Origin: an uncultured Acidimicrobiaceae bacterium
GTDB taxonomy: Bacteria; Actinomycetota; Acidimicrobiia; Acidimicrobiales; Ilumatobacteraceae
DNA length: 40,532 nucleotides
Reading direction: 5' to 3'
NCBI GenBank assembly: GCA_937890395.1
Contig: CALACK010000197.1
Location: forward strand, 1 to 40,532
Below are positions 104 to 35,576 of this stretch, in pieces. A program made the position numbers and the translations under genes. A model generated the notes under the pieces. It saw nothing but the letters and a program-made list of their open reading frames with translations. It was not told the origin of the DNA and did not search any database. Position 1 is the first letter of the stretch; every line of letters starts with the position of its first letter.

Positions 104-1045
104 TTAATTATTGGGGATTTTTGAGAGAACTGTTAGCGCATAATGGGCGGCATCAATTGTTCCCTGTTCAAAGGTGTCATAGGGGTCTTCGTTTTCAATG
201 CTTAGTACGTCGTCATAACCAATATCTTTAAGCGCGTTGAAAAATGGAGTCCAAAACTCGTCACCGTGCCCTTTGCCAACTGTTCGAAAGTTCCATGAGC
301 GTTCTGCTGGATTTGCAAATGTTCGGCTATCCAGTGTGCCCGCGATACCAAGTTGCTGATGGTTGAATTCAAGATCCTTGAGGTGAACATGATGGACTGC
401 ATCACCAAGCGCACGAATCATTGCAATTGGGTCCATGTGTTGCCAAAACAGGTGGCTTGGGTCAACATTCGCGCCGATTATCTGACCAATATGCTGTCTG
501 ATTTTAAGCAGTGTTGGTGTGTTGTAGACAAGGTGCATTGGATGAAGTTCAAAGGCAATTTTTTCGATGCCGTGATCGCTACCGAAGGCGGCTAGCTCTG
601 TCCATAGATCAAGTGTTTGTGACCACTGGCGGTTGAGTAAGTCAACGCCGTCAGATGGCCATGGGAAAAATATCCAATTAATCGTTGACGAATTTGGGCC
701 GTCTCCGGGGCACCCCGACATCGTAACTATTTTCTTGACGTCTAAAAGTTGAGCAAGTTGCATTGCTCCCTTGATGATCTCGACGTGTTCGTTACCTTTG
801 ATTGGATGCATCGGCCACGCTGAGCAATTCAGCGCGCCAATCCGAAGACCGCGATTGTTTAGTTCGCTGATAAGAGTTTCACGAGCTTTTTTGTTGCTCA
901 ACAGTTCTGAAAGATTCATGTGCGGTGCGCTTGACTGACCGCCGACAGCAAGTTCGACGGCGGTGGCGCCTGCTTTAGCTATTACGTCAAGAGCATCTGT
1001 ACGAGTGAGGTTCTGAACCGAGTCTGTATATACGCATAATTCCAT
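104..1045 (-). CDS. Sugar phosphate isomerase/epimerase (xylose isomerase-like TIM barrel)
   Basis: This 313-residue cytoplasmic protein has the look of the AP-endonuclease-2/xylose-isomerase-like TIM-barrel family, which includes IolE, IolH and IolI of inositol catabolism. Visible landmarks are an N-terminal strand followed by GATAVELAVGG, a central FELHPMH with candidate metal ligands, NVDPSHLFW, and a late SIENEDP carrying the usual C-terminal Glu ligand. Length fits the family. It is the last complete gene of a minus-strand run iolD-iolB-Gfo/Idh-this gene, 27 bp after its neighbour, so it is probably co-transcribed. The company suggests an isomerase or dehydratase acting on inosose or a related keto-sugar. 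The exact reaction cannot be fixed from sequence. The ATG is preceded only by a loose purine stretch. Confidence 0.8.
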   Translation of the reverse strand: MELCVYTDSVQNLTRTDALDVIAKAGATAVELAVGGQSSAPHMNLSELLSNKKARETLISELNNRGLRIGALNCSAWPMHPIKGNEHVEIIKGAMQLAQLLDVKKIVTMSGCPGDGPNSSTINWIFFPWPSDGVDLLNRQWSQTLDLWTELAAFGSDHGIEKIAFELHPMHLVYNTPTLLKIRQHIGQIIGANVDPSHLFWQHMDPIAMIRALGDAVHHVHLKDLEFNHQQLGIAGTLDSRTFANPAERSWNFRTVGKGHGDEFWTPFFNALKDIGYDDVLSIENEDPYDTFEQGTIDAAHYALTVLSKIPNN

Positions 1046-1072
1046 GAGGTATTTTTCTCTTTCTGTTTTGCT

Positions 1073-2242
1073 CTAATTTAAACCGAAAAGATTATGTTTT
1101 CTAACTGGTGAATCTTTCGAACTACTTGTGAAGTCCAAATCTTTAATTCCACTGACGCCTTTAATGTGAAGCGGATTTGAATTATCAAGAGGCACAGATA
1201 TTGATTGACCAGTAGCGGCCGATGCGTAGCTAGCTAAAGTCATTTCAAGTACCTCTAATCCGATTTCGCCGGTAGCTGCAGAATTTCTTGTCTGTCCAAT
1301 AGCGTCTGCAATATCAGTTAAGGCGGCGGCGATCGACCAGCGGATTTTGTCGTGGATAGATTCGCTATTGGGTTCAAAATACACAGGTTCGATTCTTGTA
1401 TCGGAGCCAACTGTTATAACCATATTGTCAAAAGCAGACCATGGGCAAGTTCCTAAATTTTCGTAGTTGATGCGAAGTCGACCTTTGCTACCGACTATGT
1501 CGATACCGCCGTGCCCATATCCCCAGCCGATATTTACGAGTGCTGCGCTGTCGCCAGATTCAAGTCGACAAAGTGCAAGGCTTTCGACGCCGTCTCCTTG
1601 CGTATGGCTTGTTACGTGCGCTGAGACACGTTGGGTCGGTGATCCAAGAAAATGATTTGCAAGGTAGACGCCATGGATCATGTCCATCAACACGCCACCA
1701 CCAGAAGATGCGTAGTCGTGACGCCATTTCGGTTTAAAACCGCTCGCGCCCATTGAATCTACAACACCTAAAAAATTTACTGTGACGACGCGTACATCAC
1801 CGAGTTCGCCTGAATCAAGAATGCGCTTTGCCGCAACTACCTCAGGAAAAAACAAATAATTGTGAATTACGGCTAACTTCACACCCGCTTGTTTCGCTGC
1901 ATGAATTGCCGCCTTCGCATCAGCGGGTACGGCAGCGAGTGGTTTTTCGCAAACAATATGGTGCCCGGCTTTGGCCGCTGCCTCAATAAGTTCTCGGTGT
2001 AAGTGTTGCGGAGTGCAGATATCAATTAAGTCAACATCGGATCTTTGGATTAGCTCAAGCGGATCTGAATATCCATCTCGGGTGGTAAGTTTTGCTTTAG
2101 TTAATCCCAGTTCAAGTTGTGTTTCGAATGGGTCGGCAACTGCCACTATTTCAAATCGTTCAGGAGTTTCTAAATAAGCGGGAATATGCCCGTTCAATGC
2201 GATGTTTCCGCAACCAATCAATCCGACGCGAAGTTTATGCAT
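1073..2242 (-). CDS. Gfo/Idh/MocA family NAD(P)-dependent oxidoreductase
   Basis: An N-terminal Rossmann fold starts at once with LRVGLIGCGNIA (the GxGxxA/G nucleotide loop), followed by VAVADP and the family hallmark EKPLA in HHIVCEKPLA. The C-terminal half is the alpha/beta substrate domain. About 389 residues is usual. I chose the ATG at 2242 because AGGTGA sits 5 nt before it; a GTG three codons upstream at 2251 is also in frame. The gene overlaps the end of iolB by 8 bp. Gfo/Idh enzymes oxidise sugars and inositols, so in this operon a myo- or scyllo-inositol or inosose substrate is likely. It could be the IolG-type step, but I cannot separate inositol from other sugar specificities by eye. 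Confidence 0.85.
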   Translation of the reverse strand: MHKLRVGLIGCGNIALNGHIPAYLETPERFEIVAVADPFETQLELGLTKAKLTTRDGYSDPLELIQRSDVDLIDICTPQHLHRELIEAAAKAGHHIVCEKPLAAVPADAKAAIHAAKQAGVKLAVIHNYLFFPEVVAAKRILDSGELGDVRVVTVNFLGVVDSMGASGFKPKWRHDYASSGGGVLMDMIHGVYLANHFLGSPTQRVSAHVTSHTQGDGVESLALCRLESGDSAALVNIGWGYGHGGIDIVGSKGRLRINYENLGTCPWSAFDNMVITVGSDTRIEPVYFEPNSESIHDKIRWSIAAALTDIADAIGQTRNSAATGEIGLEVLEMTLASYASAATGQSISVPLDNSNPLHIKGVSGIKDLDFTSSSKDSPVRKHNLFGLN

Positions 2243-3092
2243 AAATGTCACCTATTTCTAACGGTAGATTCATTTGATTTTTTGACCAATCGTCTTCGAT
2301 CCAAGTATGTGCAACATCGAAGCACGGCTTGACAGCCCGATCATCATTTGTTGGGTGACCCGCCAAATAATTAAGTAGCCACATGTTGTGACCTGGTGAA
2401 GCAGTTGCCAGGTGGTACCCCCAAGGAATCACCACTAGATCGCCATCTTGTACCATAAAGTGCTCGTCTGAGTTTTCGCTTTCATGTGCATCTAACTTAT
2501 AGTTTCGGTGAAAACCAAAACCATCACTTCTGTCGAAGCGGAAATAATAAGTTTCCTCTAAATATGGGGATCCGTTAGTGCCATCGTGGCAATGGGGCGG
2601 CCATCCTGACCATGCACCTCGAGGCACGTATGCTTCGTAGAGAATTAAGCGTTCGGCTGGCAGTGGGTGGGCGAGTAGATGGTTTACTTGCCGTCTGGCG
2701 GCACCGCCTCCTCGTACTTCAACTCGCATTTCGTTTGGCTCAAAAACACGAATTGGATACCGACCTTCTGCCTGTGCTCCACCAATCGTGAATTCGAAAC
2801 TACTTTCAGCAGTAATAGAAATTAGATGACCTGGCGGAACATAAACTACCTGTGGTGATTGTTTGAAAACATCTGCACGTTGTAGGTGAATCTTTTTTTC
2901 AGCCACCTCAACGAAGCCAGAACCTGAAAGTGGAACAATCGCAACTTCGCGATCTCTTGAGTTGTGCTCAAAACTTTTAGATTTTTCGAGTTTTATGACA
3001 TTGAAGTCAAGATATGTCCATCCAATTGATTTAGGTGTTACATCAAATTGCGTACCGTCATCGTTTTTCTTTGGTCTGTGTAGATTGCTCAC
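2235..3092 (-). CDS. iolB: 5-deoxy-glucuronate isomerase
   Basis: IolB converts 5-deoxy-D-glucuronate to 2-deoxy-5-keto-D-gluconate, the step after ring opening by IolD in myo-inositol catabolism. The 285-residue double-cupin protein shows PPHCHDG (metal-binding His) around residue 168, EETYYFRF after it, and VVIPWGYH plus MWLLNYLAG in the second barrel, all typical of IolB. The start is GTG inside a 4-bp overlap (GTGA) with the stop of iolD, which implies translational coupling. Length is slightly above the roughly 265-275 residues of well-known members. Confidence 0.93.
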   Translation of the reverse strand: MSNLHRPKKNDDGTQFDVTPKSIGWTYLDFNVIKLEKSKSFEHNSRDREVAIVPLSGSGFVEVAEKKIHLQRADVFKQSPQVVYVPPGHLISITAESSFEFTIGGAQAEGRYPIRVFEPNEMRVEVRGGGAARRQVNHLLAHPLPAERLILYEAYVPRGAWSGWPPHCHDGTNGSPYLEETYYFRFDRSDGFGFHRNYKLDAHESENSDEHFMVQDGDLVVIPWGYHLATASPGHNMWLLNYLAGHPTNDDRAVKPCFDVAHTWIEDDWSKNQMNLPLEIGDIYA

Positions 3093-4975
3093 GACTGAAA
3101 TGGTGCACCAGGCACCATTAAATAACGTTGCGCTGATTTTTCTTTCTCGTAGATTTCGCGCGCGGCATTAACGTCTTGATTCTCTGATGTGTGTGCAGTT
3201 GCCATATCCCACCAACAACTCGCATAACCCGGAACTCTTTCATCCCAGTCAGTGTTTACGACGATGCAAGTGGTCTTTGTTGACGCGCGCGCCGCAACAA
3301 GTGCTTTTTTGAAATCAGAGAGACTGTCGGCTTTAATAGATGCCGCACCTAATCCTTCGCAGATTTTGACGAAGTCAACCGGCAATACGTCGCCGTCGTA
3401 CGCACCAGAATTGCTTCGATATCGATAATGGCAACCAAAACCTAGGCTTCCAACATTCTCAGACACTCTTCCGACACTTGAGAATCCATTGTTGTTGACG
3501 ACAACAATAATTAATTTTATGTTCTCTTGGATGGCAGTCGTAATCTCAGTATTCATCATCATGAACGAGCCATCTCCGACCATCACGTAGACCTCACGAT
3601 CTGGAGCGGCCATTTTTGCACCGAGGCCACCTGCAATTTCGTAGCCCATAACGCTGTACCCATATTCGACTTGGTAACTCAACGAATCTTTACAGCGCCA
3701 CAACTTCAATAAGTCTCCTGGCAAACTTCCGGCTGATGTCACAACAACATCTCTTGGTTCTGCCGATGCCTGAACTGCGCCGATGACCTCACCCTGGCTT
3801 ATGGGTGTCATCGCCGCACTGTAGACGCGCTCAACTTCGTCGTTCCATTTCTGGTTAAGTTGTTGGCAACGTTGACGATATGAATTATCAACTTGATAGT
3901 CGCCAACAGCAACCGCAAGTTCTTCAAGAGTTACTTTGGCATCACCCACTAGTGGAATTGCCGCGTGCTTATATGCATCCATTTCAAAAACATTGATATT
4001 TATAAAGCGGACATTCGGGTGTCTGAATGCAGTTTTCGACGATGTCGGAAAATCTGTAAAACGTGTGCCGATGCCGATTATTAAATCTGCTTCGGGCGCG
4101 ATGATGTTTGCCGCTTCTGTACCTGAAACACCTGCAGCGCCAAGACTTAAAGGGTGATCAAAAAGTAATGAACCTTTGCCTGCGTGAGTTTCTGCTACTG
4201 GAATTCCAGTTTGTTCAACGAACGCCATCAGTGCGTCTTCGGCTGCGCTATACCGAATACCACCACCGGCAATAATTAGTGGGGTCTTAGCGGCACGGAT
4301 CCATGCGACGGCACGCTCTATAGAAGTTGTGTCAGCACGGTTTCGCGGTATCGACCAGATTCGTTTGCGAAACATTTCTTCTGGGTAATCAAATGCATAA
4401 GTTTGAATATCTTGAGGTAATGCCAAAACTGCCGCACCAGTTTCAGCTGGTGATGTAAGAATTCGCATCACTTCGGGTAGTGATGTGATTGCTTGTTCCG
4501 GTCGTTGAATTCGATCCCAATATTTCGAGACAGGTTTGAAAGTATCATTTGATGACTGATCTTGAGTGAATGGAAACTCAAGTTGTTGCAAAACTGGACT
4601 CTGAACTCGCTCAGCAAAGTAATCTCCAGCCAAGCAAAGAACTGGAACACGATTTACGGTTGCTGTAGCTGCACCCGTAACCATATTCGTTGCCCCTGGC
4701 CCAATTGATGAAAGACAGGCCTGCGCTTTCATTCGACGATTCATCTTCGCGTAAGCCACAGCGCTATGGACCATTGCCTGTTCGTTACGAGAAAGGTAAT
4801 AGGGCATGTCAGAGCTGTACTGCTGCAATGCTTGGGCGACACCGCCAATGTTTCCGTGGCCAAAGATTCCCCAAGTTCCACCAAAAAATTCGTTTTGATG
4901 TCCATCGCGCTCGACATGCTGATTGATTAGGTACTTGATAATTGCTTGAGCAAGTGTCAGTCGTTGTGTTGCCAT
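3089..4975 (-). CDS. iolD: 3D-(3,5/4)-trihydroxycyclohexane-1,2-dione hydrolase
   Basis: IolD is a thiamine diphosphate (ThDP)-dependent enzyme that hydrolytically opens the inositol-derived cyclohexanedione ring to 5-deoxy-glucuronate. The 628-residue protein has the three-part acetolactate-synthase-like architecture: an N-terminal pyrimidine-binding domain, a central domain with ADLIIGIGTRF, and a C-terminal diphosphate domain whose motif runs from GDGS near residue 467 to VVVNNNG. The active-site Glu is probably the one before the NMVTGAA stretch region. It is the first gene of the operon and ends in a 4-bp overlap with iolB. The 163 bp between it and the divergent thiolase should hold both promoters; a GGGGG run lies 9 nt before the ATG as a weak ribosome site. 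Length and order are as expected for the family. Confidence 0.94.
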   Translation of the reverse strand: MATQRLTLAQAIIKYLINQHVERDGHQNEFFGGTWGIFGHGNIGGVAQALQQYSSDMPYYLSRNEQAMVHSAVAYAKMNRRMKAQACLSSIGPGATNMVTGAATATVNRVPVLCLAGDYFAERVQSPVLQQLEFPFTQDQSSNDTFKPVSKYWDRIQRPEQAITSLPEVMRILTSPAETGAAVLALPQDIQTYAFDYPEEMFRKRIWSIPRNRADTTSIERAVAWIRAAKTPLIIAGGGIRYSAAEDALMAFVEQTGIPVAETHAGKGSLLFDHPLSLGAAGVSGTEAANIIAPEADLIIGIGTRFTDFPTSSKTAFRHPNVRFININVFEMDAYKHAAIPLVGDAKVTLEELAVAVGDYQVDNSYRQRCQQLNQKWNDEVERVYSAAMTPISQGEVIGAVQASAEPRDVVVTSAGSLPGDLLKLWRCKDSLSYQVEYGYSVMGYEIAGGLGAKMAAPDREVYVMVGDGSFMMMNTEITTAIQENIKLIIVVVNNNGFSSVGRVSENVGSLGFGCHYRYRSNSGAYDGDVLPVDFVKICEGLGAASIKADSLSDFKKALVAARASTKTTCIVVNTDWDERVPGYASCWWDMATAHTSENQDVNAAREIYEKEKSAQRYLMVPGAPFQS

Positions 4976-8376: not shown

Positions 8377-9732
8377 CTATTTTGCCGTACGGATTAGTTC
8401 AGCAACGCGAAATGCGAGATCAAGTGATTGTCGCGCATTGAGTCGTGGATCACAAACCGATTCGTAGCGAGTGTCAAGATCTTCTTGGCTGACTGCCTCG
8501 GCACCACCAAGACACTCGGTGACGTTGTCGCCTGTGAGTTCGATGTGAATGCCACCCGGCCAACTATTTTCAGCACGATGGGCTAATACGAAACCAGTAA
8601 TTTCGCGAATGATGTCGTCAAAGTGTCGGGTCTTGCGGCCGTTGGCGGCGGTGAAAGTATTTGCATGCATTGGATCACATGCCCAAACAACTGGATGGCC
8701 AGCATCGCGCACTGCTCGAATAAGTGGACGCAAAACGCTTTCTATTTTGTCGGCGCCCATTCGCGTGATCAGCGTTAAGCGACCAGCAACTCGCGCAGGG
8801 TTGAGAATCTCGCACAAAGATAAAACAAAATCTGTTGTCGTTTCTGGGCCAATCTTGCATCCAACCGGGTTTCCGACGCCGCGTAAAAATTCAATGTGTG
8901 CGCCGTCAAGCTGGCGTGTCCGTTCACCAATCCATAACATGTGCGCTGAGCAGTCGTACCAAGTGCCCGTCAGCGAGTCTTGGCGAGTGAGCGCCTCTTC
9001 ATATCCAAGAATTAATGCTTCGTGACTTGTGTAGAAGTCAACTTCATGCAGCGGGCTATGGCTCTCTGTGTCAATGCCGCACGCACGCATAAATGCCAGT
9101 GCTCTTTCGATTTCTCCTGCAACTTGTTCGTAGCGCTGACCGGCTGCACTGGTTGTAACAAACTCTTGATTCCATGCATGAACACGATTCAGATCGGCGA
9201 AGCCACCTTTGGTGAACGCACGTAATAAGTTGAGAGTGCTTGCTGATTGGTGATACGCCTGCACCATGCGTTGCGGATCTGGTACCCGTGACTCGATGTG
9301 CGGTGCAGGGTCATTAACCATATGTCCACGAAAAGAAGCGATCTCTTTATTGCCGATCATCTCGGTGTCGCTTGAGCGTGGCTTGGCGAATTGTCCGGCG
9401 ATTCTGCCAACTTTCACAACTGGTACGCCCATCGAATAGGTGAGCATCACTGCCATCTGCAAAATCACGCGAAGCTTCTCGCGTATATTTACTGCTGTGA
9501 ACTCTTCGAAACTTTCTGCGCAGTCACCGGCCTGCAATAAAAATGCGTTTCCACTAGCAACTTGACCAAGTGCTGTGAGAAGCGATCGTGCCTCACCTGC
9601 AAAAACAAGTGGCGGGTAAGATGCGATTTGCTTTAGTGAATTATCAAGCGCAGTTTGATCAGGCCACTTTGGTTGTTGTGCGGCGACATTGTTTTGCCAT
9701 GAAGACGGTGTCCAGCGATTAGTTGAACTCAT
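8377..9732 (-). CDS. aroG: 3-deoxy-7-phosphoheptulonate synthase, class II
   Basis: This enzyme condenses phosphoenolpyruvate and erythrose-4-phosphate to DAHP, the first step of the shikimate pathway. The 451-residue sequence matches the plant/mycobacterial class II form: an N-terminal TPSSW...AQQPKWPD, FLLQAGDCAESF (metal-binding Cys), PVVKVGRIAGQFAKPRS, ESHSPLHEVDFYTSHEAL, KIGPETT, VVWACDPMHANTFT and GGIHIELTGDNVTECLGG. I chose the ATG at 9732 because the 26-codon longer frame would run into the upstream sigma gene. It lies 28 bp after that gene and 4 bp before a hydrolase gene. Mycobacterial homologues form a complex with an AroQ-type chorismate mutase, and a chorismate mutase domain occurs at 34.2-35.0 kb. 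Confidence 0.95.
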   Translation of the reverse strand: MSSTNRWTPSSWQNNVAAQQPKWPDQTALDNSLKQIASYPPLVFAGEARSLLTALGQVASGNAFLLQAGDCAESFEEFTAVNIREKLRVILQMAVMLTYSMGVPVVKVGRIAGQFAKPRSSDTEMIGNKEIASFRGHMVNDPAPHIESRVPDPQRMVQAYHQSASTLNLLRAFTKGGFADLNRVHAWNQEFVTTSAAGQRYEQVAGEIERALAFMRACGIDTESHSPLHEVDFYTSHEALILGYEEALTRQDSLTGTWYDCSAHMLWIGERTRQLDGAHIEFLRGVGNPVGCKIGPETTTDFVLSLCEILNPARVAGRLTLITRMGADKIESVLRPLIRAVRDAGHPVVWACDPMHANTFTAANGRKTRHFDDIIREITGFVLAHRAENSWPGGIHIELTGDNVTECLGGAEAVSQEDLDTRYESVCDPRLNARQSLDLAFRVAELIRTAK

Positions 9733-9760
9733 CCTGATAACACTATTGCCGAAAGTTGCC

Positions 9761-10588
9761 TCAGACGGTGAGGATTTCTCCGGCATCGTCGCGCAATGTG
9801 TCAACAGCACGACTTACTAGGCGGCGGGCAGCCTCGGCGGTTACGCCAAGCTCTTCGCCGACTTGACGGAAGCTTTTACGCTCTCCATCATGAAGACCAA
9901 AACGAGCCTCAACTGCATAACGAGCGCGCTCGTCAAGAGTACCGAGAAGGCGATCAAGTAAGTCTGTGTCGACCATTCCCATTACTGCATCTTCTGGGCT
10001 GATGTCTTCGTTTGGCACGAGGTCGCCCAAAGTTGCATCGCCGTCTTCACCGATTGTTTTGTCAAGTGAAACTGGTGTTGTAAGGCGATGAAGTTCGGCG
10101 TTCATCGCGCTTAAGCCTTCAGCATCTCCTGAGCCCTGTCGAAGTGCCGCGCGAAGTGTTGCCGAGCGGTCGCCGGGAATTCGAATAAGACTTGCTTTTT
10201 GATCTAGTGCACGTCCAATTGCTTGGCGAATCCAAAAAGTTGCATATGTCGAAAATTTGAAACCACGACGCCAGTCAAACTTGTCAACAGCATGTTCGAG
10301 ACCGAGGTTTCCTTCTTGGATTAAATCGAGCAAGTCCATTCCTTGTGGTAATGGATACCGACGAGCGATTGAAACGACCAATCGAAGGTTTGAACGAATG
10401 AATCGGTCTTTGGCGCGAGCGGCATTTCGCATATCGGCGCGAAGTGCGGCGCCGCGTTCACCTATTTCAATAGCTTTTTTGGCGTCACGACCAGCCTCGA
10501 TCGCTTTTGAGAGATCACGTTCATCTTCGGCGTTAAGCAAGGCAACCTTGCCGATTTCGTTGAGGTAGATACCGATTGAGTCAGACAT
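9761..10588 (-). CDS. RNA polymerase sigma factor, sigma-70 RpoD/SigA-like (group 1/2)
   Basis: This 275-residue promoter-recognition factor has region 1.2 (GIYLNEIGKVALLNAEDE), regions 2.1-2.4 (RFIRSNLRLVVSIARRYP, LLDLIQEGNLGLEHAVDKFD, FSTYATFWIRQAIGRAL), a region 3 with the TTPVSLDKTIGEDGDATLGDLV linker, and region 4.2 with a helix-turn-helix (KSFRQVGEELGVTAEAARRL). It lacks the long acidic region 1.1 of housekeeping SigA and is short, so an alternative SigB/HrdC-like role fits better. A loose AGGAAAG lies about 13 nt before the ATG, and the leader is C-rich because of the G-run tract on the other strand. It is probably the first gene of a unit with DAHP synthase and the serine hydrolase. 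Confidence 0.93.
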   Translation of the reverse strand: MSDSIGIYLNEIGKVALLNAEDERDLSKAIEAGRDAKKAIEIGERGAALRADMRNAARAKDRFIRSNLRLVVSIARRYPLPQGMDLLDLIQEGNLGLEHAVDKFDWRRGFKFSTYATFWIRQAIGRALDQKASLIRIPGDRSATLRAALRQGSGDAEGLSAMNAELHRLTTPVSLDKTIGEDGDATLGDLVPNEDISPEDAVMGMVDTDLLDRLLGTLDERARYAVEARFGLHDGERKSFRQVGEELGVTAEAARRLVSRAVDTLRDDAGEILTV

Positions 10589-19500: not shown

Positions 19501-20889
19501 GTGAGTTCGCTTGACGAAATTATTGAGGATGAAGAGCGAATATTTATGAGCAGAGTACCAAAATCGGTGCAGATGCATCTCCAGGCTTCAAAATCAATTC
19601 CTGGCGGAGTTCCATCAAGTTGGGCTAGTTCGCGTCCGACTCCAGTTTGGATCAGCCATGGCAATGGCGCGTATGTCTGGGATGTAGACGACAATCGCTA
19701 CATCGACTTTCACGCCGGCTATGGCGCCAATGTGGTTGGGCATGCCAATCCGAGTGTGGTTGCTGCGGTGCAAAAACGCGTCACTCAGGGCACGCACTTC
19801 GCCCAGCCAACTTCTGACTCAATAGTTGTCGCCGAAGAATTGTCGCGAAGATTTGGTTTGCCTCAGTGGCGATTTTGTAATTCGGGCACAGAAGCGACGA
19901 TGGATGCCGTGCACTTAATGCGTGTAATCACTGGGCGCGACTTGATTATAAAAGTTGAGGGTTCATATAACGGACACCACGATGCAGTAGCAATTTCGAT
20001 TTTTAGATCAGCCAAAGAACTTGGTCCGGCTGATAAACCGTGGCGCACTCCCGGTGCTGGAATACCGCAAGCAATTGCTGATTGTGTGCGCATTGTTCAG
20101 TTCAACGACATCAATGCATTGAGTCGACTACTCGACGAGCATGAGGGGCAAATTGCTGGAATGATTTTTGAACCGATCTTGATGGGGGCCGGCATTATCG
20201 TTCCGCAACCTGGTTATCTCGAGGCGGTAAAAAAGTTAGTTCATCAGCATGGTGCACTTTTGGCATTTGATGAAGTAAAAACGGGTTTGGTAATTCATCA
20301 GGGCGGCGCCACAGCAATGTATGGGGTGGTGCCAGACATAATTTGTCTTGCAAAAGCATTGGGCGGCGGTTTGCCTTGTGGTGCAATCGGTGGGACAAAC
20401 GAGGTGATGGGAGCAATCACCGATGGTCGTTACAACCAAGTAGGCACCTTTAACGGCAATCCTTTGACAATGGCCGCCTCTCGTGCGGTGCTGACCGAAG
20501 TTTTAACCGACGATGCGTATGCGAGAGCCAACGATGTCGGTGCGTACATTTTGAAGCACGCGATACCAACTTTGCAGAGACACCGACAAGGTGTGCATGG
20601 GTATCAGTTTGGTTTTAAAGTTTCGATCGTATTCAGCGACGAGCCAGCCACAAATTATCGAGACTTTCTAGAAGTAAGTACGGGCGCAATGCATTTAAAT
20701 TATCTGATGCAGTTCAATGGTGGCGTCTTTTTGGCTCCGTGGGGCAAGAGCGAGTCGCTGACACTTTCGGTCGCTCACACTCGTGAACATGGCGACGTGT
20801 TCTTGCAAAATCTTTCGCAACTCGGAAAAGTCGTCGAACAGATGAGCGAGCACACCTCAGAAGTATTCGCAGCGGGCAGTTTTAATTAA
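19501..20889 (+). CDS. Class III pyridoxal-phosphate aminotransferase
   Basis: This 462-residue fold-type I aminotransferase is close to the glutamate-1-semialdehyde-aminomutase-like branch: IPGGVPSSW near the start, GNGAYVWDVDDNRYIDFHAGYGANVVGHANP, CNSGTEATMDAVHLMR, EGSYNGHHDAV, LLAFDEVKTG (cofactor Asp) and CLAKALGGGLPCGAIGG with the Schiff-base Lys. True HemL is a less likely identity because of the neighbourhood. Beta-amino-acid and omega-amino-acid transaminases belong to the same branch. The start is GTG without a ribosome site; ATG 19546 is an alternative. Its 3' end overlaps the convergent Rieske gene by 8 bp. Confidence 0.92.
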   Translation: MSSLDEIIEDEERIFMSRVPKSVQMHLQASKSIPGGVPSSWASSRPTPVWISHGNGAYVWDVDDNRYIDFHAGYGANVVGHANPSVVAAVQKRVTQGTHFAQPTSDSIVVAEELSRRFGLPQWRFCNSGTEATMDAVHLMRVITGRDLIIKVEGSYNGHHDAVAISIFRSAKELGPADKPWRTPGAGIPQAIADCVRIVQFNDINALSRLLDEHEGQIAGMIFEPILMGAGIIVPQPGYLEAVKKLVHQHGALLAFDEVKTGLVIHQGGATAMYGVVPDIICLAKALGGGLPCGAIGGTNEVMGAITDGRYNQVGTFNGNPLTMAASRAVLTEVLTDDAYARANDVGAYILKHAIPTLQRHRQGVHGYQFGFKVSIVFSDEPATNYRDFLEVSTGAMHLNYLMQFNGGVFLAPWGKSESLTLSVAHTREHGDVFLQNLSQLGKVVEQMSEHTSEVFAAGSFN

Positions 20890-21985
20890 TTTCGCTACGA
20901 TATTGACGGATTAGTTGTTGGCAATATCGCTCCATTTTTGTGTGGTATGCACGAATGAATGATCGTGACGCAACACCGCGCTGAACACGTTCGCAAACCG
21001 CAATGTCTTGCTGATTGACCATGTCGCTAAATGAAATTGTTGGCTCAAGGTCGAGTGTCTTGTCATCGACCACACTCTTCGGAAATAAATAATCTGTAAA
21101 AATAGTTGTATGAGTAGGTGATCGTGGAACATATCTTGTTAGAACAGCAACCGTTGGTGAAATGTCAATCAACATGTTTGGATATACAAAAACACCAAAT
21201 ACTGAATATTCATCCAGATCTTCCATTGATGGCAATAACGCAAGACTTTCGTTTTGTTTGTGCGACAACGAAGTTTTACCATCCGCCAGGCTGACGCCCC
21301 AGTCGTTTCGGTTGTCTTGAATAGTTTTGCCAGTCTTATAGATCGGCACGAGATCAACCAGTTCGGGGTGCACAACAGCGCAGTGCAAACATTCGCTGTA
21401 GTTTTCGGCGAGCACCTTCCAATTTGCAGAAACTTCGTCAACCGTCGTGCGAGCATTTACAAGTGAATTCATTTCAAATTTTTCTAGTTCACGAGGGCGA
21501 GAAAAATGTGTATCAAGCCACTCAAGTAATGGTTTTGCATTTGGGTCAAGTGACACAAAAATACAACCCTGCCAATGGTCTACTCTCACTTGTTTTAACC
21601 CGAGTGTTGCTCTGTCTATTGAATCTTTCTCGTGCAGAGGTGTTGCAATAAGTTCACCCTCGACTGAGTAGCTCCACGAGTGGTAAGGGCAAGTTATGGC
21701 GGCCCCGAAACCCGAACCGCTTGCGTCGCATAAATTAGACCCACGGTGTTGGCAGACGTTGTAAAACGCTCGTAACTCATCAGAACGATTTCTCAGAATC
21801 AAAATACTCTCGCTACCGATATCAACAACTAGTCGATCGCCAATTTTGTTTAAGCTTTCGCAAAGACCAGCAAAACACCAATTGGTGCCGTATATTTTTT
21901 GCATCTCATCGTTAAATATTTCTTGAGAATTATATTCTTCGCGCGTGAAACTTTCGCTTAGACCATGAATTTGATTTTCGGTCAT
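20882..21985 (-). CDS. Rieske non-haem iron oxygenase, alpha subunit
   Basis: A protein of about 367 residues with a Rieske [2Fe-2S] site (Cys81-x-His83 ... Cys102-P-Y-His105, counted from the longer start at 21994) and a catalytic iron site ENYSECLHCAVVHP with His204 and His209. It resembles the choline/glycine-betaine/carnitine monooxygenase group that oxidatively cleaves or hydroxylates quaternary or methylated amines. The third iron ligand is probably the Asp in QQDIAVCERVQ. An electron-supplying reductase is required, and none is in the window. I prefer the ATG at 21985 because it gives a 4-bp ATGA overlap with the PhyH gene; the ATG at 21994 is in frame too. Confidence 0.92.
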   Translation of the reverse strand: MTENQIHGLSESFTREEYNSQEIFNDEMQKIYGTNWCFAGLCESLNKIGDRLVVDIGSESILILRNRSDELRAFYNVCQHRGSNLCDASGSGFGAAITCPYHSWSYSVEGELIATPLHEKDSIDRATLGLKQVRVDHWQGCIFVSLDPNAKPLLEWLDTHFSRPRELEKFEMNSLVNARTTVDEVSANWKVLAENYSECLHCAVVHPELVDLVPIYKTGKTIQDNRNDWGVSLADGKTSLSHKQNESLALLPSMEDLDEYSVFGVFVYPNMLIDISPTVAVLTRYVPRSPTHTTIFTDYLFPKSVVDDKTLDLEPTISFSDMVNQQDIAVCERVQRGVASRSFIRAYHTKMERYCQQLIRQYRSEIN

Positions 21986-22863
21986 TGTGGCCATCCAAGT
22001 CCGGTTGGGATGTCTTCGTAATCAACTGTCCACAGTCTGCCACCATTCAACTCAGATGCGTCATAACAGCGGTAGCCGAGAAGTTGCTGTTGTTGTTTCG
22101 TGAAAGTTTTTGCGCGTTCTTCGGTAACGCCGAGGCAACCAGCTTCTTCTGGTGTCAACCAGCCGTAAATATATGACATGTGCATGCCAAATCTTGGCTC
22201 TGACTTAGTTTGATTGGCGCCCGCGCTGTGCAGAGTTTTGCCGGTATAGATCATTCCGCTACCTGCCGGCATCACTGCCTGAGTTATCTCGCTGTCAATG
22301 GCCGCTCGCGAGAAGTCACTCCATCTATGGCTACCTGGGGCGACTCGTGTTGCGCCGTTTTCGGCAGTGAAATCAGAAAGCGCGAACATACAACTAATTT
22401 GGCACACCGGTTTAGTCGGCCCACTCATTGCTGGCCAATCATCTGAATCGCGGTGCATATATTGCGGTGCTCCACTGGGCATGACGATCATCATCTGGCC
22501 GGTATTCATCCAATAGCTTGCACAATGTGGTTTGAGTAATGCGTCAGCAATACCTATAAGTAATGGATGAATTAAAACTTGATCGGCAAATGTTTGCGAG
22601 CGTTGCGCCAATCGTGTAAATCGCTTGGTCTGTTCGCCCCAAAAGTAATTTACATTTGTGCTATCGACTTTTGGTCCGACTGAAGTTGAGTCGCTAGTCG
22701 GGTCAAGCTCTTCGCGCAGACTGGTCACTGTTTGTGGCGAGAGCATGTCATGCACAATCAAACCGCCGTCTCGTTCAAGAATATTCAGAATTTCTGCAAG
22801 TGATGAAGTCTTTGCACTTACGACGGTGAGGCTGACTTTTGCGTCAAGATCTGTACTGCTCAC
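21982..22863 (-). CDS. Phytanoyl-CoA dioxygenase (PhyH) family Fe(II)/2-oxoglutarate oxygenase
   Basis: A 293-residue double-stranded beta-helix enzyme. The iron triad is visible as His137-x-Asp139 (QYMHRDSDDW) and His212 (GKTLHSAGAN), with Arg224 in EPRFGMHMSY as the probable 2-oxoglutarate anchor. ENGATRVAPGSHRW is the usual family stretch. Members hydroxylate CoA esters, ectoine or small amino acids. It is the first gene of a two-gene unit with the Rieske oxygenase. The start is GTG with TAGGAT 6 nt before it, which again suggests a leaderless message. It is divergent from the LLM oxidoreductase. Confidence 0.92.
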   Translation of the reverse strand: MSSTDLDAKVSLTVVSAKTSSLAEILNILERDGGLIVHDMLSPQTVTSLREELDPTSDSTSVGPKVDSTNVNYFWGEQTKRFTRLAQRSQTFADQVLIHPLLIGIADALLKPHCASYWMNTGQMMIVMPSGAPQYMHRDSDDWPAMSGPTKPVCQISCMFALSDFTAENGATRVAPGSHRWSDFSRAAIDSEITQAVMPAGSGMIYTGKTLHSAGANQTKSEPRFGMHMSYIYGWLTPEEAGCLGVTEERAKTFTKQQQQLLGYRCYDASELNGGRLWTVDYEDIPTGLGWPQ

Positions 22864-30967: not shown

Positions 30968-33388
30968 CTAGTGATTCGCAAACTCGGCATTATTGTCGCA
31001 ATTTTTGTCGTAATTTTTGTCGTAATTTTTGTCATAGAGAGTTGAGCGTTGGCGCAAAGTGCGACCAAGTGGTTCAACTATTTCCCTGAACGACTGTTCG
31101 GTCATTTCTTGGCCGTGGCTTGCGCCGGCAGCGCGAGAAATATTCTCGTTCATCAAAGTTCCACCCATATCGTTGCAACCTGCCTGCAATAATTGTCTTG
31201 CACCAGCGTGACCGATCTTTGTCCATGACACTTGGATGTTGTCGATCAAACCGTGATATGCGATGCGTGCAATTGCATGCATCAACACCGTTTCTCTAAA
31301 AGTCGGTCCACGACGTGACTTGTGTTGCAAATAAATCGGTGAAGCCATATGTACGAACGGCAAACCAACGAACTCGGTGAATCCACCAGTTTCTTTTTGC
31401 AAGTCACGTGTGCGCACAATGTGCTTGGCCCAACTAATCGGGTGTTCAACCGAGCCGAACATAATTGTGATATTTGATCGCAACCCAGCTTTATGTGCAA
31501 CACGATGACACTCGAGCCATTCTTCGGTGTTGATTTTGTCAGAGCAGATAATCGCGCGGATGTCATCGTCTAATATTTCGGCTGCGGTGCCTGGTAGTGA
31601 AGCCAAACCAGCATCTTTGAGTCGCAAAATATATTCGCGCAATGGTTCGCCGAGTCTCTTTGCACCTTCGGTAACCTCGAGCGCGGTAAAACCGTGAATG
31701 TGCATTTGCGGCACAGCATCTTTAACTGCCCGCGCGACATCAATGTAATAGTCGCCATCGAAATCGGGATGAATGCCACCTTGCAGAGTTACTTCAGTGG
31801 CGCCCTTATCCCATGCCTCACTCGCTCGCAACGCAATATCATCAAGCGTCAGTAAATAAGGTGTGCCACGCAAGTTCAAACTCAGCGGACCTTTTGAGAA
31901 TCCACAAAATTTACATTTGAATGTGCAGACATTTGTGTAGTTGATATTTCTGTTGTGTACCCAGGTCACAACATCACCGACAACTTCTTTGCGCAGCTGG
32001 TCGGCGAGCGCAGCAACCGCGTTAACTTCAGGTCCGCGGGCACCAAACAGCGCGACTATTTGCTGTTGGTCAACTTGTTGGCCGAGTTCAACACCGCGCA
32101 ATACCTCGGCAATTGGGCCAGCCTTAATTTTGTTGCCATCAACCCGCGCACTAATTAAAACCGGTGGGGGATTATTTGCACCCGAATACCACTGCGTTGA
32201 GCGGTGACCGATCAAAATAACTTCGGCGCCATCTTGCACTACATCAGCAGCCGTAACTTTTTCTGGCCAGACCTGACCAGGGTCATCGCGACCCAAACCT
32301 TCAGCGTCGCTGCGATCAAGAACTTTGAAGTACAACGATTCGTCGAGCCACTTTGTCGGTGCAGTTGCAAACTCAGGATAGATAGTTAATCGCGGCGCAA
32401 GAACTTTGTCGCGCTTTTCTGTTGCGTCGCGCAACTTGTCAAGCGCAGGCCAAGGGCGTTCTGGGTTGACGTGGTCAGCCGTAACCGGTGAAACGCCACC
32501 CCAGTCGTCAATGCCAGCGTCGAGCAACAACCCGAAATCGTCGCTCAAATTTGGCGGCGCTTGCAGGTGAATTTCGGGCGGCAAGATGACTCTCGCTGCT
32601 GCAATTGTCCATAAGTATTCGTCTTGCGGGCATGGCTTTTCGTGTTGCATAATAGTTAGTGGCTTCGGTAAAAAGTTTTGCACGATCACTTCTTGAATAT
32701 GCCCGTATTTTGCATGCGATGCAGCAATTGCTTCAAGTGCGACTATTCGATCTTGTCGAGTCTCGCCGATGCCGACCAAGATGCCGGTTGTAAATGCGAT
32801 ATTTAGTTCGCCGGCGAAATTTAATGTGTCAAGTCGGCGTCGTGGCTCTTTGTCGGGCGCGCCGCGATGACAGTCGAGATCGTCGCGCAATGTTTCGATC
32901 ATCATGCCTTGTGATGGTGAGACGCGGCGCAACATTTCTAGCTCGTCGCGATATAACGCGCCAGCATTTGCGTGTGGCAACAAACCAGTTTCTTTTAGTA
33001 CGAGCGCTGCCATGTCGTGTAGATAGTGCACGGTGCTGTCGTAGTTATTTTGCTTCAACCAGTCGCGAGCAACTTCGTATCTCAATTCGGGTCGCTCGCC
33101 GAGTGTAAATAACGCTTCGTGGCAACCAGCTTTAGCGCCTTGCTTAGCAATTGCTAGAACCTGTTCGGCTAACAGATAAGGATTTTCTAATTTCGCTGGT
33201 GGCTGAGCGAAAGTGCAGTATCCGCATTTATCTCGACACAACATCGTTAAAGGAATAAATACTTTCGGTGAGTAAGTAACTCGACTACCAAAAGTCTCAT
33301 CTCGAATTGCACGCGCTTGACGCATTAACTCGGATGTTGAAATTTCAGATATTGACTTATCAAGTACGCGACGGCTCTCAGACAACAT
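30968..33388 (-). CDS. fbiC: 7,8-didemethyl-8-hydroxy-5-deazariboflavin (FO) synthase, fused CofG-CofH
   Basis: FbiC makes FO, the chromophore of cofactor F420, from 5-amino-6-ribitylaminouracil and L-tyrosine using two radical-SAM centres. The 806-residue protein has a CofG half with CRDKCGYC (about residues 51-58) and a CofH half with CTFKCKFCGF (about 489-498), each a Cx3Cx2C cluster site. Later CofH stretches include VTLQGGIHPDFDGDYY and GHAGARQLLQAGCNDMGGTLMNENISRAAGASHG. The ATG at 33388 is chosen because AGGAGGG precedes it; the frame opens 48 bp earlier only at a TTG. The last residues are a YDKN tandem repeat. It lies in a minus-strand block with ribE. Confidence 0.97.
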   Translation of the reverse strand: MLSESRRVLDKSISEISTSELMRQARAIRDETFGSRVTYSPKVFIPLTMLCRDKCGYCTFAQPPAKLENPYLLAEQVLAIAKQGAKAGCHEALFTLGERPELRYEVARDWLKQNNYDSTVHYLHDMAALVLKETGLLPHANAGALYRDELEMLRRVSPSQGMMIETLRDDLDCHRGAPDKEPRRRLDTLNFAGELNIAFTTGILVGIGETRQDRIVALEAIAASHAKYGHIQEVIVQNFLPKPLTIMQHEKPCPQDEYLWTIAAARVILPPEIHLQAPPNLSDDFGLLLDAGIDDWGGVSPVTADHVNPERPWPALDKLRDATEKRDKVLAPRLTIYPEFATAPTKWLDESLYFKVLDRSDAEGLGRDDPGQVWPEKVTAADVVQDGAEVILIGHRSTQWYSGANNPPPVLISARVDGNKIKAGPIAEVLRGVELGQQVDQQQIVALFGARGPEVNAVAALADQLRKEVVGDVVTWVHNRNINYTNVCTFKCKFCGFSKGPLSLNLRGTPYLLTLDDIALRASEAWDKGATEVTLQGGIHPDFDGDYYIDVARAVKDAVPQMHIHGFTALEVTEGAKRLGEPLREYILRLKDAGLASLPGTAAEILDDDIRAIICSDKINTEEWLECHRVAHKAGLRSNITIMFGSVEHPISWAKHIVRTRDLQKETGGFTEFVGLPFVHMASPIYLQHKSRRGPTFRETVLMHAIARIAYHGLIDNIQVSWTKIGHAGARQLLQAGCNDMGGTLMNENISRAAGASHGQEMTEQSFREIVEPLGRTLRQRSTLYDKNYDKNYDKNCDNNAEFANH
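30995..31034 (-). repeat. 12-bp in-frame tandem repeat at the 3' end of fbiC
   Basis: Three full copies of GTCGYAATTTTT (plus-strand reading) and a partial fourth encode the YDKN-type units near the C-terminus of FbiC. The unit length is a multiple of three, so copy changes would keep the frame. Confidence 0.9.
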
Positions 33389-33584
33389 GACCCTCCTAGG
33401 GTGATTGATGAAATTATGTTGAGAGCGCTCGACCAAGGTTCTTCACCGTGTTAGAAAGGTGACGAATCTTGTAACTGACGTGCCCTCTAACAGTAGCCCC
33501 ATTTTTCGCTATCGCGCAAGCGCCAATTTTCAAGACCGGCGGCTAATGGCTGGCGTCGGCCAGTTGATCTTGACTAGTTGGTTT
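33389..33584. other. Spacer between fbiC and the toxin gene, with an inverted repeat
   Basis: This gap should hold the fbiC promoter. CTGGC (33550-33554) and GCCAG (33559-33563) with a 4-nt loop form a small GC hairpin about 20 bp beyond the toxin stop, a possible terminator without a T-tract. GTTAGA (33450-33455) and TCTAAC (33486-33491) form a wider inverted repeat that could be an operator. No gene is supported. Confidence 0.35.
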
Positions 33585-33902
33585 TTAGTTGAGGCCCAGG
33601 AGCACTAGAAGCGCATCGTCGATAGTCCATTGTTCTTCGGCTTTTACATGTCCGACTCTTTTGCCTAGCCGGTCAATGGAAATAGCCTTCATATGTTCAA
33701 TCATTACTTTTGTCGTCTGTTTTTGAATCTCAATATTTGGGCGGATTGAAGCACTCAGCGCACTTTGCGAAGTTGGCGCAACCAACACAACAGAACGAGG
33801 TAACAAAGAATTTGATTGCAGTATTACCGCGTAACGTTTTCCATAAAGTTCATGACTAATCCCTTTGGGTAAATTAATTGCAAAAACATCACCTCTATTC
33901 AC
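33585..33902 (-). CDS. mazF: MazF/PemK-family toxin (endoribonuclease)
   Basis: A 105-residue protein with the MazF/PemK beta-barrel pattern: MNRGDVFAINLP, YGKRYAVILQSN (the conserved P-V-V/L-x-Q-x-x strand), VVLVAPTSQSA, IRPNIEIQ and VMIEHMKAISIDRLGKRVG. MazF toxins are sequence-specific RNases that cut mRNA, rRNA or tRNA when the antitoxin is degraded. The family's loop residues look intact, so it may be active. It overlaps the antitoxin gene upstream by 8 bp. Confidence 0.9.
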   Translation of the reverse strand: MNRGDVFAINLPKGISHELYGKRYAVILQSNSLLPRSVVLVAPTSQSALSASIRPNIEIQKQTTKVMIEHMKAISIDRLGKRVGHVKAEEQWTIDDALLVLLGLN

Positions 33903-34155
33903 CCAGCATCTCCATGTATTCGGCTAGTCGTTTCATCTCGGCGCGATCTTTTGGATCTGCATCAAGTGCGGCAATTTCGGCGGCAAGTCGAGTCGGTTCA
34001 TTTAATGCTTCTGCAGCGTCAAGAACTGCTTTTCGCACTGCTTCAGATTGGCTCATACCAGTTTGTTGAAGGCGTAACAATGCTCGACGAGTTCGGTCAT
34101 CAAGTCTTAGAGAAATTGCTTCCGCCACAAAATTTAATGTATCACGATTTGTCAT
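33895..34155 (-). CDS. Ribbon-helix-helix antitoxin partner of MazF
   Basis: An 86-residue protein with an N-terminal ribbon-helix-helix pattern (ISLRLDDRTRRALLRLQQTGMSQSEAVRKAVLDAAEAL) for DNA binding and an acidic, helical C-terminal tail (EIAALDADPKDRAEMKRLAEYMEMLGE) fit to wrap the toxin. It comes first in the pair, as is usual, and probably represses its own promoter in the roughly 48 bp before it. Only a weak GAGAAA precedes the ATG. Confidence 0.85.
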   Translation of the reverse strand: MTNRDTLNFVAEAISLRLDDRTRRALLRLQQTGMSQSEAVRKAVLDAAEALNEPTRLAAEIAALDADPKDRAEMKRLAEYMEMLGE

Positions 34156-34203: not shown

Positions 34204-34974
34204 TTATTTAGCGAGGGCGCGAAATAGGGCGCGAACGTTTTGTCCAGAAATTGGTACGCGATGACCAGTGCGTGAGATGAAACCTAGTTGGACACCGGTT
34301 GACGAGTCGAGCACCGTGAAAACTTGTTCGTGTCCATCAGCATCGACGATCACATCTGTCAGTAGCGGCACTTTTGCCTCGGCCAGTGCTTGTTGCACAA
34401 AACCTGCATTGAGCACTTCGATCGCAATGTGTTGAACGCCAGAACCGTGATCTGCTAGGTGAGCGTCAACTGCTGGGTCGCCTGGGCCCACCAAAACCAC
34501 AGTGACGCCACCAGCATCTGCGGTAACGATCGCCGAATCTTGGGTGCGAGTGATTTTGAAACCCAGTGATGTGAGAAAGACCATTGCCGAATCTAAGTTC
34601 GCTACGGCGACAACAACATGATCAATGCGACAAGCAACTGTGTCAAGTGCGGATTGCGGGGTTGAACCTGAAGCATCTGCCGTTTTGCTCGGAGCAATCT
34701 CGTTGCGTTCTTCGGCGATTTCAATTCGATGCGTTTCAGAAAGCAAAATGCGAAAAAGCTGTTCTGTGAAGTCTGGATCTACTTGATTATCGATTGCCCA
34801 CTGACGACGCACAGTCAGAACTTCTCGCACTCGTTGTGGCTGAATAACTGCCGTGCCTGTACCGGCTTTGACTTCAGCAACTTGGCGACAAACATCCATG
34901 CGTTCGGCAAGCAACTTGACGATTGCTAGATCTATATCATCAATTTTCTGACGCAGTTGAGATAGATCGCTCAT
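34204..34974 (-). CDS. Chorismate mutase (AroQ type) fused to a VOC/HPPD-like domain
   Basis: A two-domain, 256-residue protein. Residues 1-88 are a type II chorismate mutase (chorismate to prephenate) with Arg8, Arg25, Lys36, Arg50 and Glu51 at the expected active-site places. After a linker rich in Ser, Thr and Ala (about 93-113) comes a vicinal-oxygen-chelate domain (115-238): RIDHVVVAVANLDSAMVFL and HLADHGSGVQHIAIEV resemble the N-terminal half of 4-hydroxyphenylpyruvate dioxygenase. His119 and His182 stand at metal-ligand places, but the Glu expected in the last strand is Gly231 (GVQLGFISR). The ATG at 34974 gives a 4-bp ATGA overlap with ribE; an ATG 4 codons upstream is the alternative. 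Confidence 0.88.
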   Translation of the reverse strand: MSDLSQLRQKIDDIDLAIVKLLAERMDVCRQVAEVKAGTGTAVIQPQRVREVLTVRRQWAIDNQVDPDFTEQLFRILLSETHRIEIAEERNEIAPSKTADASGSTPQSALDTVACRIDHVVVAVANLDSAMVFLTSLGFKITRTQDSAIVTADAGGVTVVLVGPGDPAVDAHLADHGSGVQHIAIEVLNAGFVQQALAEAKVPLLTDVIVDADGHEQVFTVLDSSTGVQLGFISRTGHRVPISGQNVRALFRALAK

Positions 34975-35576
34975 CGTCGCCACCATCTTTTTTGGGCCGC
35001 ACCGTTAGCGCTGATTGCAGATGAACTAACTCGTGCAATGTGCTTGGCGACCATATCCATTTCAATATTGACTTTGTCGCCAACTTTGCGCACACCCAAT
35101 GTCGTCACTTCTATCGTGTGGGGTATCACTGCCACAGTAAATGTGTCGACAGTTAAGTCGTAGGCAGTAAGGCTGATTCCGTCAACTGTTATTGAACCTT
35201 TTTCTACGATCAGGTGCATCAAGTCGCGCGGTATTCGCACCACCAAGTTCGGTACCTCTGAAACAATTTCGCCGACGGCATCAACATGACCCAAAACAAG
35301 ATGACCGCCGAGTCGATCACCAAGCGCCATCGGTCGCTCAAGGTTGACGACGTCACCGACTTTTAGTGAGCCAAGATTTGTGCGCGAGAATGTTTCGTCG
35401 CTGACGTCAGTCATCCATGAATTCTGATCAAGATCGACAACAGTCAGACAGCAACCGTTAACGGCGATCGACGAGCCAATCTTTGAGCCATCCAGCACAA
35501 TTTGGGATGAGAAACGCAGCCGCGAACCGCTTCGTTCGCCGACCTTGCCAAGCTCTTCAACGATTCCAGTGAACAC
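34971..35576 (-). CDS. ribE: Riboflavin synthase, alpha subunit
   Basis: This enzyme dismutates two 6,7-dimethyl-8-ribityllumazines to riboflavin plus 5-amino-6-ribitylaminouracil. The 201-residue protein starts with the diagnostic MFTGIVEELG and has the two lumazine-binding barrels: IGSSIAVNGCCLTVVDL...DRLGGHLVLGHVDAVG and GSITVDGISLTAYDL...VNIEMDMVAKHIAR. It overlaps the chorismate mutase-VOC gene by 4 bp, so the two are coupled. The other riboflavin genes (ribBA, ribH, ribD) are not in the window. Confidence 0.96.
   Translation of the reverse strand: MFTGIVEELGKVGERSGSRLRFSSQIVLDGSKIGSSIAVNGCCLTVVDLDQNSWMTDVSDETFSRTNLGSLKVGDVVNLERPMALGDRLGGHLVLGHVDAVGEIVSEVPNLVVRIPRDLMHLIVEKGSITVDGISLTAYDLTVDTFTVAVIPHTIEVTTLGVRKVGDKVNIEMDMVAKHIARVSSSAISANGAAQKRWWRR

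Follow-up and report, generated by a model that had tools for sequence, protein, structure and literature searches.

On the minus strand of the window (the whole 40,532-nucleotide stretch of DNA that was analysed), a single uninterrupted open reading frame of 256 codons plus stop runs from position 34974 down to 34204; on the plus strand the interval 34204-34974 is not open and contains stops. An in-frame upstream ATG at 34986 offers an alternative start that would give a protein of 260 aa. Pfam models matched both parts of the product, CM_2 at residues 7-85 (E 4.1e-22; 78.6 bits against a gathering score of 27) and Glyoxalase at residues 116-209 (E 1.4e-7; 32.3 bits against 20.6). The reading frame and both matches thus bear out the fusion of a chorismate mutase (CM) to a VOC domain that an earlier sequence-only reading had claimed here. 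An AlphaFold model of the full fusion, built with a 25-sequence alignment, had a mean pLDDT of 82.7 and a pTM of 0.71, and the VOC part modelled alone reached a pLDDT of 86.1. The linker between the domains differs in length between homologues. The genes and sites discussed below are listed here; conservation was counted over 89 aligned sequences (88 distinct proteins from 114 loci and that of the window), a set biased to close relatives, and HPPD stands for 4-hydroxyphenylpyruvate dioxygenase.

8377 to 9810, minus strand: class II DAHP synthase (PF01474, 684.6 bits)
30968 to 33436, minus strand: fbiC, fused CofG-CofH F0 synthase (NCBIfam CofH 518.7 against 374.1 bits, CofG 446.9 against 213.35 bits)
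33585 to 34155, minus strand: MazF-like toxin gene and small upstream ORF, between the fusion and fbiC (PemK_toxin, Pfam, 1.9e-15)
34204 to 34974, minus strand: CM-VOC fusion gene (ORF; Pfam CM_2 and Glyoxalase; AlphaFold model as above)
34705 to 34974, minus strand: AroQ chorismate mutase domain, residues 1-90 (Pfam CM_2; fold match to 1ecm)
34636 to 34704, minus strand: linker, residues 91-113 (low confidence, pLDDT 55-58 at residues 91-110)
34207 to 34635, minus strand: VOC domain, residues 114-256 (Pfam Glyoxalase; profile and fold comparison)
34618 to 34620, minus strand: His119, where HPPD-type VOC domains have the first metal ligand (89 of 89)
34429 to 34431, minus strand: His182, where the second ligand stands (His in 84 of 89; Gln in 4, Arg in 1)
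34318 to 34326, minus strand: Gln217 and Phe219, matching Q and F in the HPPD 'QIF' on alignment (88 of 89 and 87 of 89)
34282 to 34284, minus strand: Gly231, position of the facial-triad Glu (Gly in 74, Ser in 15, Glu in 0 of 89)
34210 to 34245, minus strand: C-terminal helix, residues 244-255, aligned with the HPPD capping helix (Asn246 87 of 89, Phe251 89 of 89)
34971 to 35576, minus strand: riboflavin synthase, ribE (NCBIfam TIGR00187, 199.2 against 156.6 bits)

The stop of ribE overlaps the start of the fusion gene by four bases (ATGA), and fbiC scored 1015.2 bits on the full-length CofGH model, just under its cut-off of 1018. The gene order was followed across 80 named loci, the best-scoring ones out of 144 relatives on public contigs. 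There, ribE was directly upstream of the fusion in 74 of the 79 loci with sequence at that place, fbiC followed downstream in the same orientation in 72 of 78 (three of the six exceptions have fewer than 800 downstream bases), and a divergent rpsO was found upstream in 56 of 57. The loci that depart from the order ribE - CM-VOC - fbiC are L105-L107, L109 and L110. Around three single-domain CM genes of the family (L011, L020 and L026) neither ribE nor fbiC was detected within 1.5 kb on each side, L026 matching no reference gene. The CofH family model carries the name 5-amino-6-(D-ribitylamino)uracil--L-tyrosine 4-hydroxyphenyl transferase, and by that function the three genes share a riboflavin-pathway intermediate and tyrosine, which is suggestive of a functional link rather than proof of one. 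As fbiC uses tyrosine to make F0, there is a plausible reason for setting tyrosine supply at the fusion locus.

Between the fusion and fbiC, the MazF-like gene is an ORF of 105 aa and its small partner one of 86 aa, MazE-like by position and matching no Pfam or NCBIfam model. A mazF match downstream of the fusion, toward fbiC, was present in only 9 of the 80 loci, so this pair lies outside the core gene order and is either an insertion or readily lost. Scanning for promoters and terminators yielded nothing useful (1 promoter found, 2.7 expected). Elsewhere in the window, on the minus strand, genes for a Rieske ring-hydroxylating oxygenase and a PhyH-type dioxygenase stand side by side at 20882-22863, and Pfam matches in the stretch 104-4975 identify a MocA-type oxidoreductase at 1073-2251 and, at 3089-4975, a TPP enzyme of three domains; genes next to these resemble those of inositol catabolism.

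Eight full-length fusions, that of the window included, were found in 298 genomes of the order, seven of them within the window's family and the eighth in a different one (G004/L008). With the alignment of these eight, some match was obtained in 192 of 200 genomes sampled from the family and a full-length fusion in 125, full-length meaning a match that starts no later than model position 6 and reaches at least position 254; some of the other matches end at contig ends. In a sample of 150 of the 380 pairs at 80-95% identity, the median dN/dS of the CM part was 0.041 (111 usable pairs) and that of the VOC part 0.039 (134 usable pairs). Judged by these comparisons, the fusion is old and maintained. 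With 219 contigs, the draft assembly of the window genome would leave room for a recent accident or an assembly artefact devoid of function, but the same fusion recurs in the 125 family genomes and in 89 distinct sequences with dN/dS near 0.04 in both domains, and this conservation refutes such an origin, to which we give practically no weight.

Stand-alone relatives of the VOC domain were not seen in 397 genomes of the order (E ≤ 1e-14, up to nine candidates scored per genome), all 12 matches lying inside fusions. Outside the order, no match extended across both domains in 396 genomes of the phylum (E ≤ 1e-10, up to six candidates per genome). No viral copy was confirmed, the viral fold matches being weak (best TM 0.35). 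The records of the relatives bear titles such as Ilumatobacteraceae, Acidimicrobium/Acidimicrobiia and acIV, a freshwater actinobacterial group whose label stands on several records with the fusion gene, and many are titled Actinomycetota only; from these titles the family is taken to be Ilumatobacteraceae/acIV. The titles of several metagenome-assembled contigs with the locus (among L031-L110) name Bifidobacterium breve, Ferrithrix thermotolerans or Acidobacteria; these are probably mislabelled, since their gene order matches that of the other loci.

The CM domain matched the fold of 1ecm with a Z of 12.5 over 90 aligned residues (rmsd 1.9). On alignment with E. coli PheA, Arg8, Arg25, Lys36 and Arg48 correspond to Arg11, Arg28, Lys39 and Arg51 of the E. 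coli mutase (EcCM) and are each present in 89 of 89 sequences, so that the catalytic Arg/Arg/Lys/Arg set of AroQ enzymes is complete. Of the catalytic residues named from the sequence beforehand, Arg8, Arg25 and Lys36 hold, whereas Arg50 and Glu51 were placed two residues off: EcCM Arg51 and Glu52 align with Arg48 and Val49. At the EcCM Asp48 and Glu52 positions the fusion has Gln45 and Val49, the latter invariant (89 of 89), so the Glu that is the usual, if not universal, mark of an AroQ CM is absent. Thr81 (88 of 89) and Glu85 (89 of 89) occupy the positions of EcCM Ser84 and Gln88. According to PMC12329711, EcCM Glu52 touches the 4-OH of chorismate, and the isochorismate lyase PchB (Val55) and the secreted *MtCM have the same Val at that position.

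Among NCBIfam models the best for the CM domain was TIGR01803, CM-like. In a CM-domain tree of 62 rows, from which three loci repeating the same genomes had been left out, the fusions all fell on one side of a branch with support 77/86, where long branches meet. At EcCM positions 48/51/52/84/88 the fusions read Q/R/V/T/E (A/R/V/T/E in L008) and the single-domain CMs examined in the family (L011, L020 and L026) D/R/E/V/H. Gln45, Val or Ile at 49, Thr81 and Glu85 are common to the fusions and three single-domain CM-like proteins of the phylum (L141, L147 and L156). The CM domain most likely belongs to the TIGR01803 CM-like branch of AroQ and takes the place of an ordinary single-domain CM. Assignment to isochorismate pyruvate lyases finds a counterpart of PchB Val55 in Val49, but Thr81 stands at the place of Tyr87 and the lyase model PRK07075 gave 52.4 bits against a cut-off of 126.

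The class II DAHP synthase that had been noticed in the window is indeed encoded there, but the comparison drawn with actinobacterial mutases activated by that enzyme does not apply to the fusion. PMC4281200 describes the AroQ-delta MtCM as lacking equivalents of Ser84 and Gln88 and ending in a partner-binding tail, GRGRLGH. In the fusion Thr81 and Glu85 fill those positions and the C-terminus runs on into the linker and the VOC domain, so the AroQ-delta type was rejected; because these two residues are present where MtCM has none, the fusion CM should need no activator. A further type is represented by the three single-domain CMs examined from the family.

Only one CM_2 match, the fusion itself, was found in the window genome (91% complete). 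Across the family, 178 of 200 genomes had a CM_2 match and 174 exactly one. Four, all of them among the 125 with a full-length fusion, had two (G468, G388, G463 and G449); in the first three both matches are fusions or fusion fragments, so that a different second CM_2 may be present in G449 at most. Where a family genome lacked the fusion, its CM_2 match lay in a short frame, as examined in L011, L020 and L026. Within one family two AroQ types, the D/R/E/V/H singles and the Q/R/V/T/E fusions, thus appear to substitute for each other as the only CM_2 gene, and this speaks for a common function. PheA was detected in 79 of 91 family genomes, the window genome among them, and this genome also has a prephenate dehydrogenase of 353 aa (under the strict NCBIfam cut-offs); as both need prephenate, they support a chorismate mutase role. 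Val49 in place of the Glu that contacts the 4-OH is unusual for a housekeeping CM and counts against it. On balance the fusion is most likely the housekeeping chorismate mutase, with its activity predicted from sequence.

The fold and the Pfam Glyoxalase score place the second domain in the VOC superfamily, with its paired beta-alpha-beta-beta-beta modules. It had been likened to the N-terminal half of HPPD, a likeness that closer comparison bore out in part. The domain matched the N-terminal part of the HPPD model TIGR01263 with 36.4 bits, far from the cut-off of 277 for the two-domain enzyme, and since the genome's own methylmalonyl-CoA epimerase scored 39.7 bits on the same part of the model, this match is not specific. 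Assignment as such an epimerase also fails, with 34.4 bits against a cut-off of 114.95 on TIGR03081 and no closing Glu, although all 25 VOC-domain members match that model too. The best PDB sequence match of the VOC profile was 4-hydroxymandelate synthase (HmaS) 2r5v (E 2.5e-14), with one match in each half, that of the tail not significant alone.

Global profile alignment with 22 HPPDs of the phylum put the C-terminal half ahead (61.0 against 48.5; E 2.6e-11 against 5.1e-9), while the local score put the N-terminal half ahead (58.9 against 56.6). The tail, residues 214-256, was clearer: its mean similarity to the tail of the HPPD C-half lay at a z of 8.2, a value equalled by 0 of 300 shuffles, and that to the tail of the N-half at a z of 0.3, equalled or bettered by 91 of 300, using every third of the 25 tails and of the 22 HPPDs. 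In fold, the human HPPD N-half gave a Z of 14.8 (rmsd 2.8, 134 aligned) but ended at domain residue 135, and the HmaS C-half 13.6 (rmsd 3.0, 144 aligned), reaching the last residue; another fold comparison gave 15.0 for the HPPD N-half and 13.9 for the C-half, so that the N-half, which is metal-free in HPPD, leads by 1.1-1.2 Z overall. The N-half as sole parent was rejected for the tail, with fold and local profile score leaning to the N-half. In a tree of 13 of the 25 VOC domains, 8 of the 22 HPPDs and 5 epimerases, the VOC domains formed their own clade with neither HPPD half and grouped weakly with methylmalonyl-CoA epimerase (91/66), subject to a long-branch warning. By sequence comparison the C-terminal part matches the HPPD catalytic half, the fold leaning slightly to the N-half, and we read the domain as a separate single-domain lineage with the capping helix and pocket end of that catalytic half.

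Profile alignment placed His119, His182 and Gly231 as the sequence-only reading had them, with Gly231 opposite the facial-triad Glu of HPPD. The loss of this Glu is not peculiar to the window, position 231 never being Glu in the 89 sequences, and the His/His/Glu metal site of VOC metalloenzymes is incomplete in the fusion. As alignment columns 224-237 contain no Asp, Glu, His or Cys, there is no substitute ligand on the Glu strand. Nearby, His215 (88 of 89; Leu in L008, the most divergent member) and Glu216 (89 of 89), at 34327-34332 on the minus strand, are conserved close to the lost Glu and have no HPPD counterpart; His215 might join His119 and His182 in a metal site.

Other residues of HPPD are retained. 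Gln181 (84 of 89), Gln217, Phe219, Asn246, Leu250 (62 of 89, otherwise mostly Met) and Phe251 correspond to Gln307, Gln379, Phe381, Asn423, Leu427 and Phe428 of At HPPD, in the numbering of PMC6750108, put on our alignment by counting. Asn246, Phe251 and Gln217 are therefore the equivalents of the capping-helix pair Asn423/Phe428 and of Gln379. In HPPD, Asn423 bonds the phenol of 4-hydroxyphenylpyruvate (HPP) and Phe381 stacks on its ring; for catalysis Glu394 and the Gln293 network are required (PMC6750108). The Gln293 stretch falls in a gap of the VOC alignment, so binding could differ from that in HPPD. HPPD Phe424 is Val247 in the fusion; HmaS 2r5v has Ile there. Read from the alignment, the ring-holding end of the pocket is kept and the iron, or catalytic, end dismantled, as is expected of a receptor derived from an enzyme.

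The sensor role that had been suggested from the sequence is the best fit to this pattern, in which the HPP-contact residues are kept and the iron Glu is lost. In the mechanism we propose, a VOC domain related to HPPD and HmaS would have had its iron site disabled by replacement of the facial Glu with Gly or Ser, while the Asn on the capping helix, the Phe, the Gln and the Leu that hold the 4-hydroxyphenyl ring in HPPD were kept. It would then bind an aromatic keto acid, either HPP or its precursor prephenate, free of iron, and in its ligand-bound state would signal to the CM as feedback or feed-forward. CM activity, ligand binding, ligand identity and allostery are all properties that we infer. 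That the protein is a housekeeping CM whose HPPD-like pocket, free of iron, senses an aromatic keto acid strikes us as an even proposition. The fuller version is put forward tentatively, as one that may well be wrong: a dead-iron HPPD-type domain acting as allosteric receptor for HPP or prephenate, controlling the sole CM_2 enzyme of the family and tied through its gene neighbours to the making of flavin and F420 precursors. HPPD itself was rejected as metabolic partner. A true HPPD was found in 12 of 200 family genomes, in genera with the fusion (g4, g185) and without it (g2, g5, g176) alike, and no match over the family cut-off was found in the window genome; HPP breakdown is thus not the usual partner of the fusion, and the VOC domain does not require it.

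The VOC domain might instead be structural, stabilising or multimerising the CM or docking a partner (DAHP synthase, TyrA or FbiC) with no small-molecule ligand. VOC domains commonly pair, the iron site is lost, constraint is strong over the whole domain and a class II DAHP synthase is present, all of which would suit such a role, yet a pure scaffold needs none of the HPPD-pocket positions that are constrained here (His119, Gln217, Asn246 and Phe251). The domain would do within one chain what an activating partner does for other actinobacterial CMs, against which Thr81 and Glu85 fill the very positions that MtCM leaves unmatched; we hold this structural role to be unlikely. An enzyme of altered chemistry, with a two-His metal site, a site completed from elsewhere in the chain or metal-free chemistry on prephenate or HPP, is harder still to favour. 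The CM product resembles HPP, His119 is invariant and His182 nearly so, His215 and Glu216 are conserved where HPPDs have other residues, and water, a halide or substrate could fill the place of the Glu in a two-His site. Set against this, His182 varies to Gln or Arg, His215 is Leu in L008, the Gln293 position lies in a gap, and prephenate is already used by PheA and TyrA.

It is also conceivable, if improbable, that the AroQ domain acts on another chorismate-like substrate, in the manner of PchB, an isochorismate lyase, or PapB, a 4-amino-4-deoxychorismate mutase, with the VOC domain handling the matching keto acid. Such a substrate would agree with TIGR01803 as best model, with Val49 at the 4-OH-contact position as in PchB, and with the residues shared with L141, L147 and L156, of which L147 (in L216) adjoins a GATase/chorismate-binding gene. 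It is at odds with the fusion being the only CM_2 found in the genome, alongside PheA and TyrA, with the apparent interchange of fusion and short single-domain CMs among relatives, and with Thr81 and the low lyase score noted above. At L216:5741-8151 the single CM-like gene (Q/I/T/E) directly adjoins a gene of 690 aa for a GATase and chorismate-binding protein. A CM-like gene next to a GATase/chorismate-binding gene is what we take a PapA/PapB pairing to look like, and this one is possibly a PapA/PapB-type p-aminophenylalanine pair.

Our preferred reading remains that of a sensor domain on the family's CM. Known control of chorismate mutases and their fusions works by ACT domains, allosteric helices or complexes with DAHP synthase. 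The last of these is described in PMC4281200. If the sensor reading is true, the VOC domain would be a new kind of regulatory domain, doing at the aromatic branch point what ACT domains or the complex with DAHP synthase do elsewhere; a conserved CM with a dead-iron partner from a keto-acid enzyme would add an allosteric module and show the passage of a catalytic domain to a sensor. The fusion would also expose an odd AroQ site, with Val for Glu52, in a probably housekeeping enzyme. Among the titles listed by a literature search, mostly of open-access papers, none describes a CM-VOC fusion, and the search found nothing on fbiC together with chorismate mutase or on chorismate in Ilumatobacteraceae. 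The architecture is thus conserved, sits on what is probably a housekeeping chorismate mutase, and is undescribed in the literature found.

Compared with the AroQ domains of E. coli PheA and TyrA, the fusion has the same three-helix fold and keeps Arg11, Arg28, Lys39 and Arg51; at the Gln88 position it has Glu, as TyrA does, and at Ser84 a small polar residue. It differs in Val49 and Gln45, where the E. coli type has Glu52 and Asp48, and in its partner, the E. coli CM being joined to prephenate dehydratase or dehydrogenase and this one to a VOC domain. MtCM, of the AroQ-delta type, is likewise actinobacterial and from a genome with a class II DAHP synthase, but it ends in a partner-binding tail and leaves Ser84 and Gln88 unmatched, whereas in the fusion both positions are filled and the chain continues into a second domain.

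On the VOC side, HPPD and HmaS (2r5v, 3zgj) share with the fusion the VOC fold, the C-terminal helix with Asn and Phe, the QIF-type strand and the two His. They consist of two VOC domains and have the facial Glu, an insert of about 26 residues and the Gln293 stretch, whereas the fusion has one VOC domain and lacks the Glu, the insert and that stretch. The genome's own methylmalonyl-CoA epimerase (L166:1525-1959) is likewise a single two-module VOC protein of similar size, and such epimerases group weakly with the fusion domain in the tree and reach a fold Z of up to 13.4; the paralogue, however, passes its family cut-off (137 against 114.95 bits), keeps the closing Glu and stops before the C-terminal helix. 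A last parallel is the dehydroshikimate dehydratase of P. putida (5hmq), which carries an HPPD-like C-terminal domain (PMC8264583). It too is a shikimate-linked enzyme with an HPPD-like part, but as described there its partner is a TIM barrel and its HPPD-like part is larger than that of the CM-VOC fusion.
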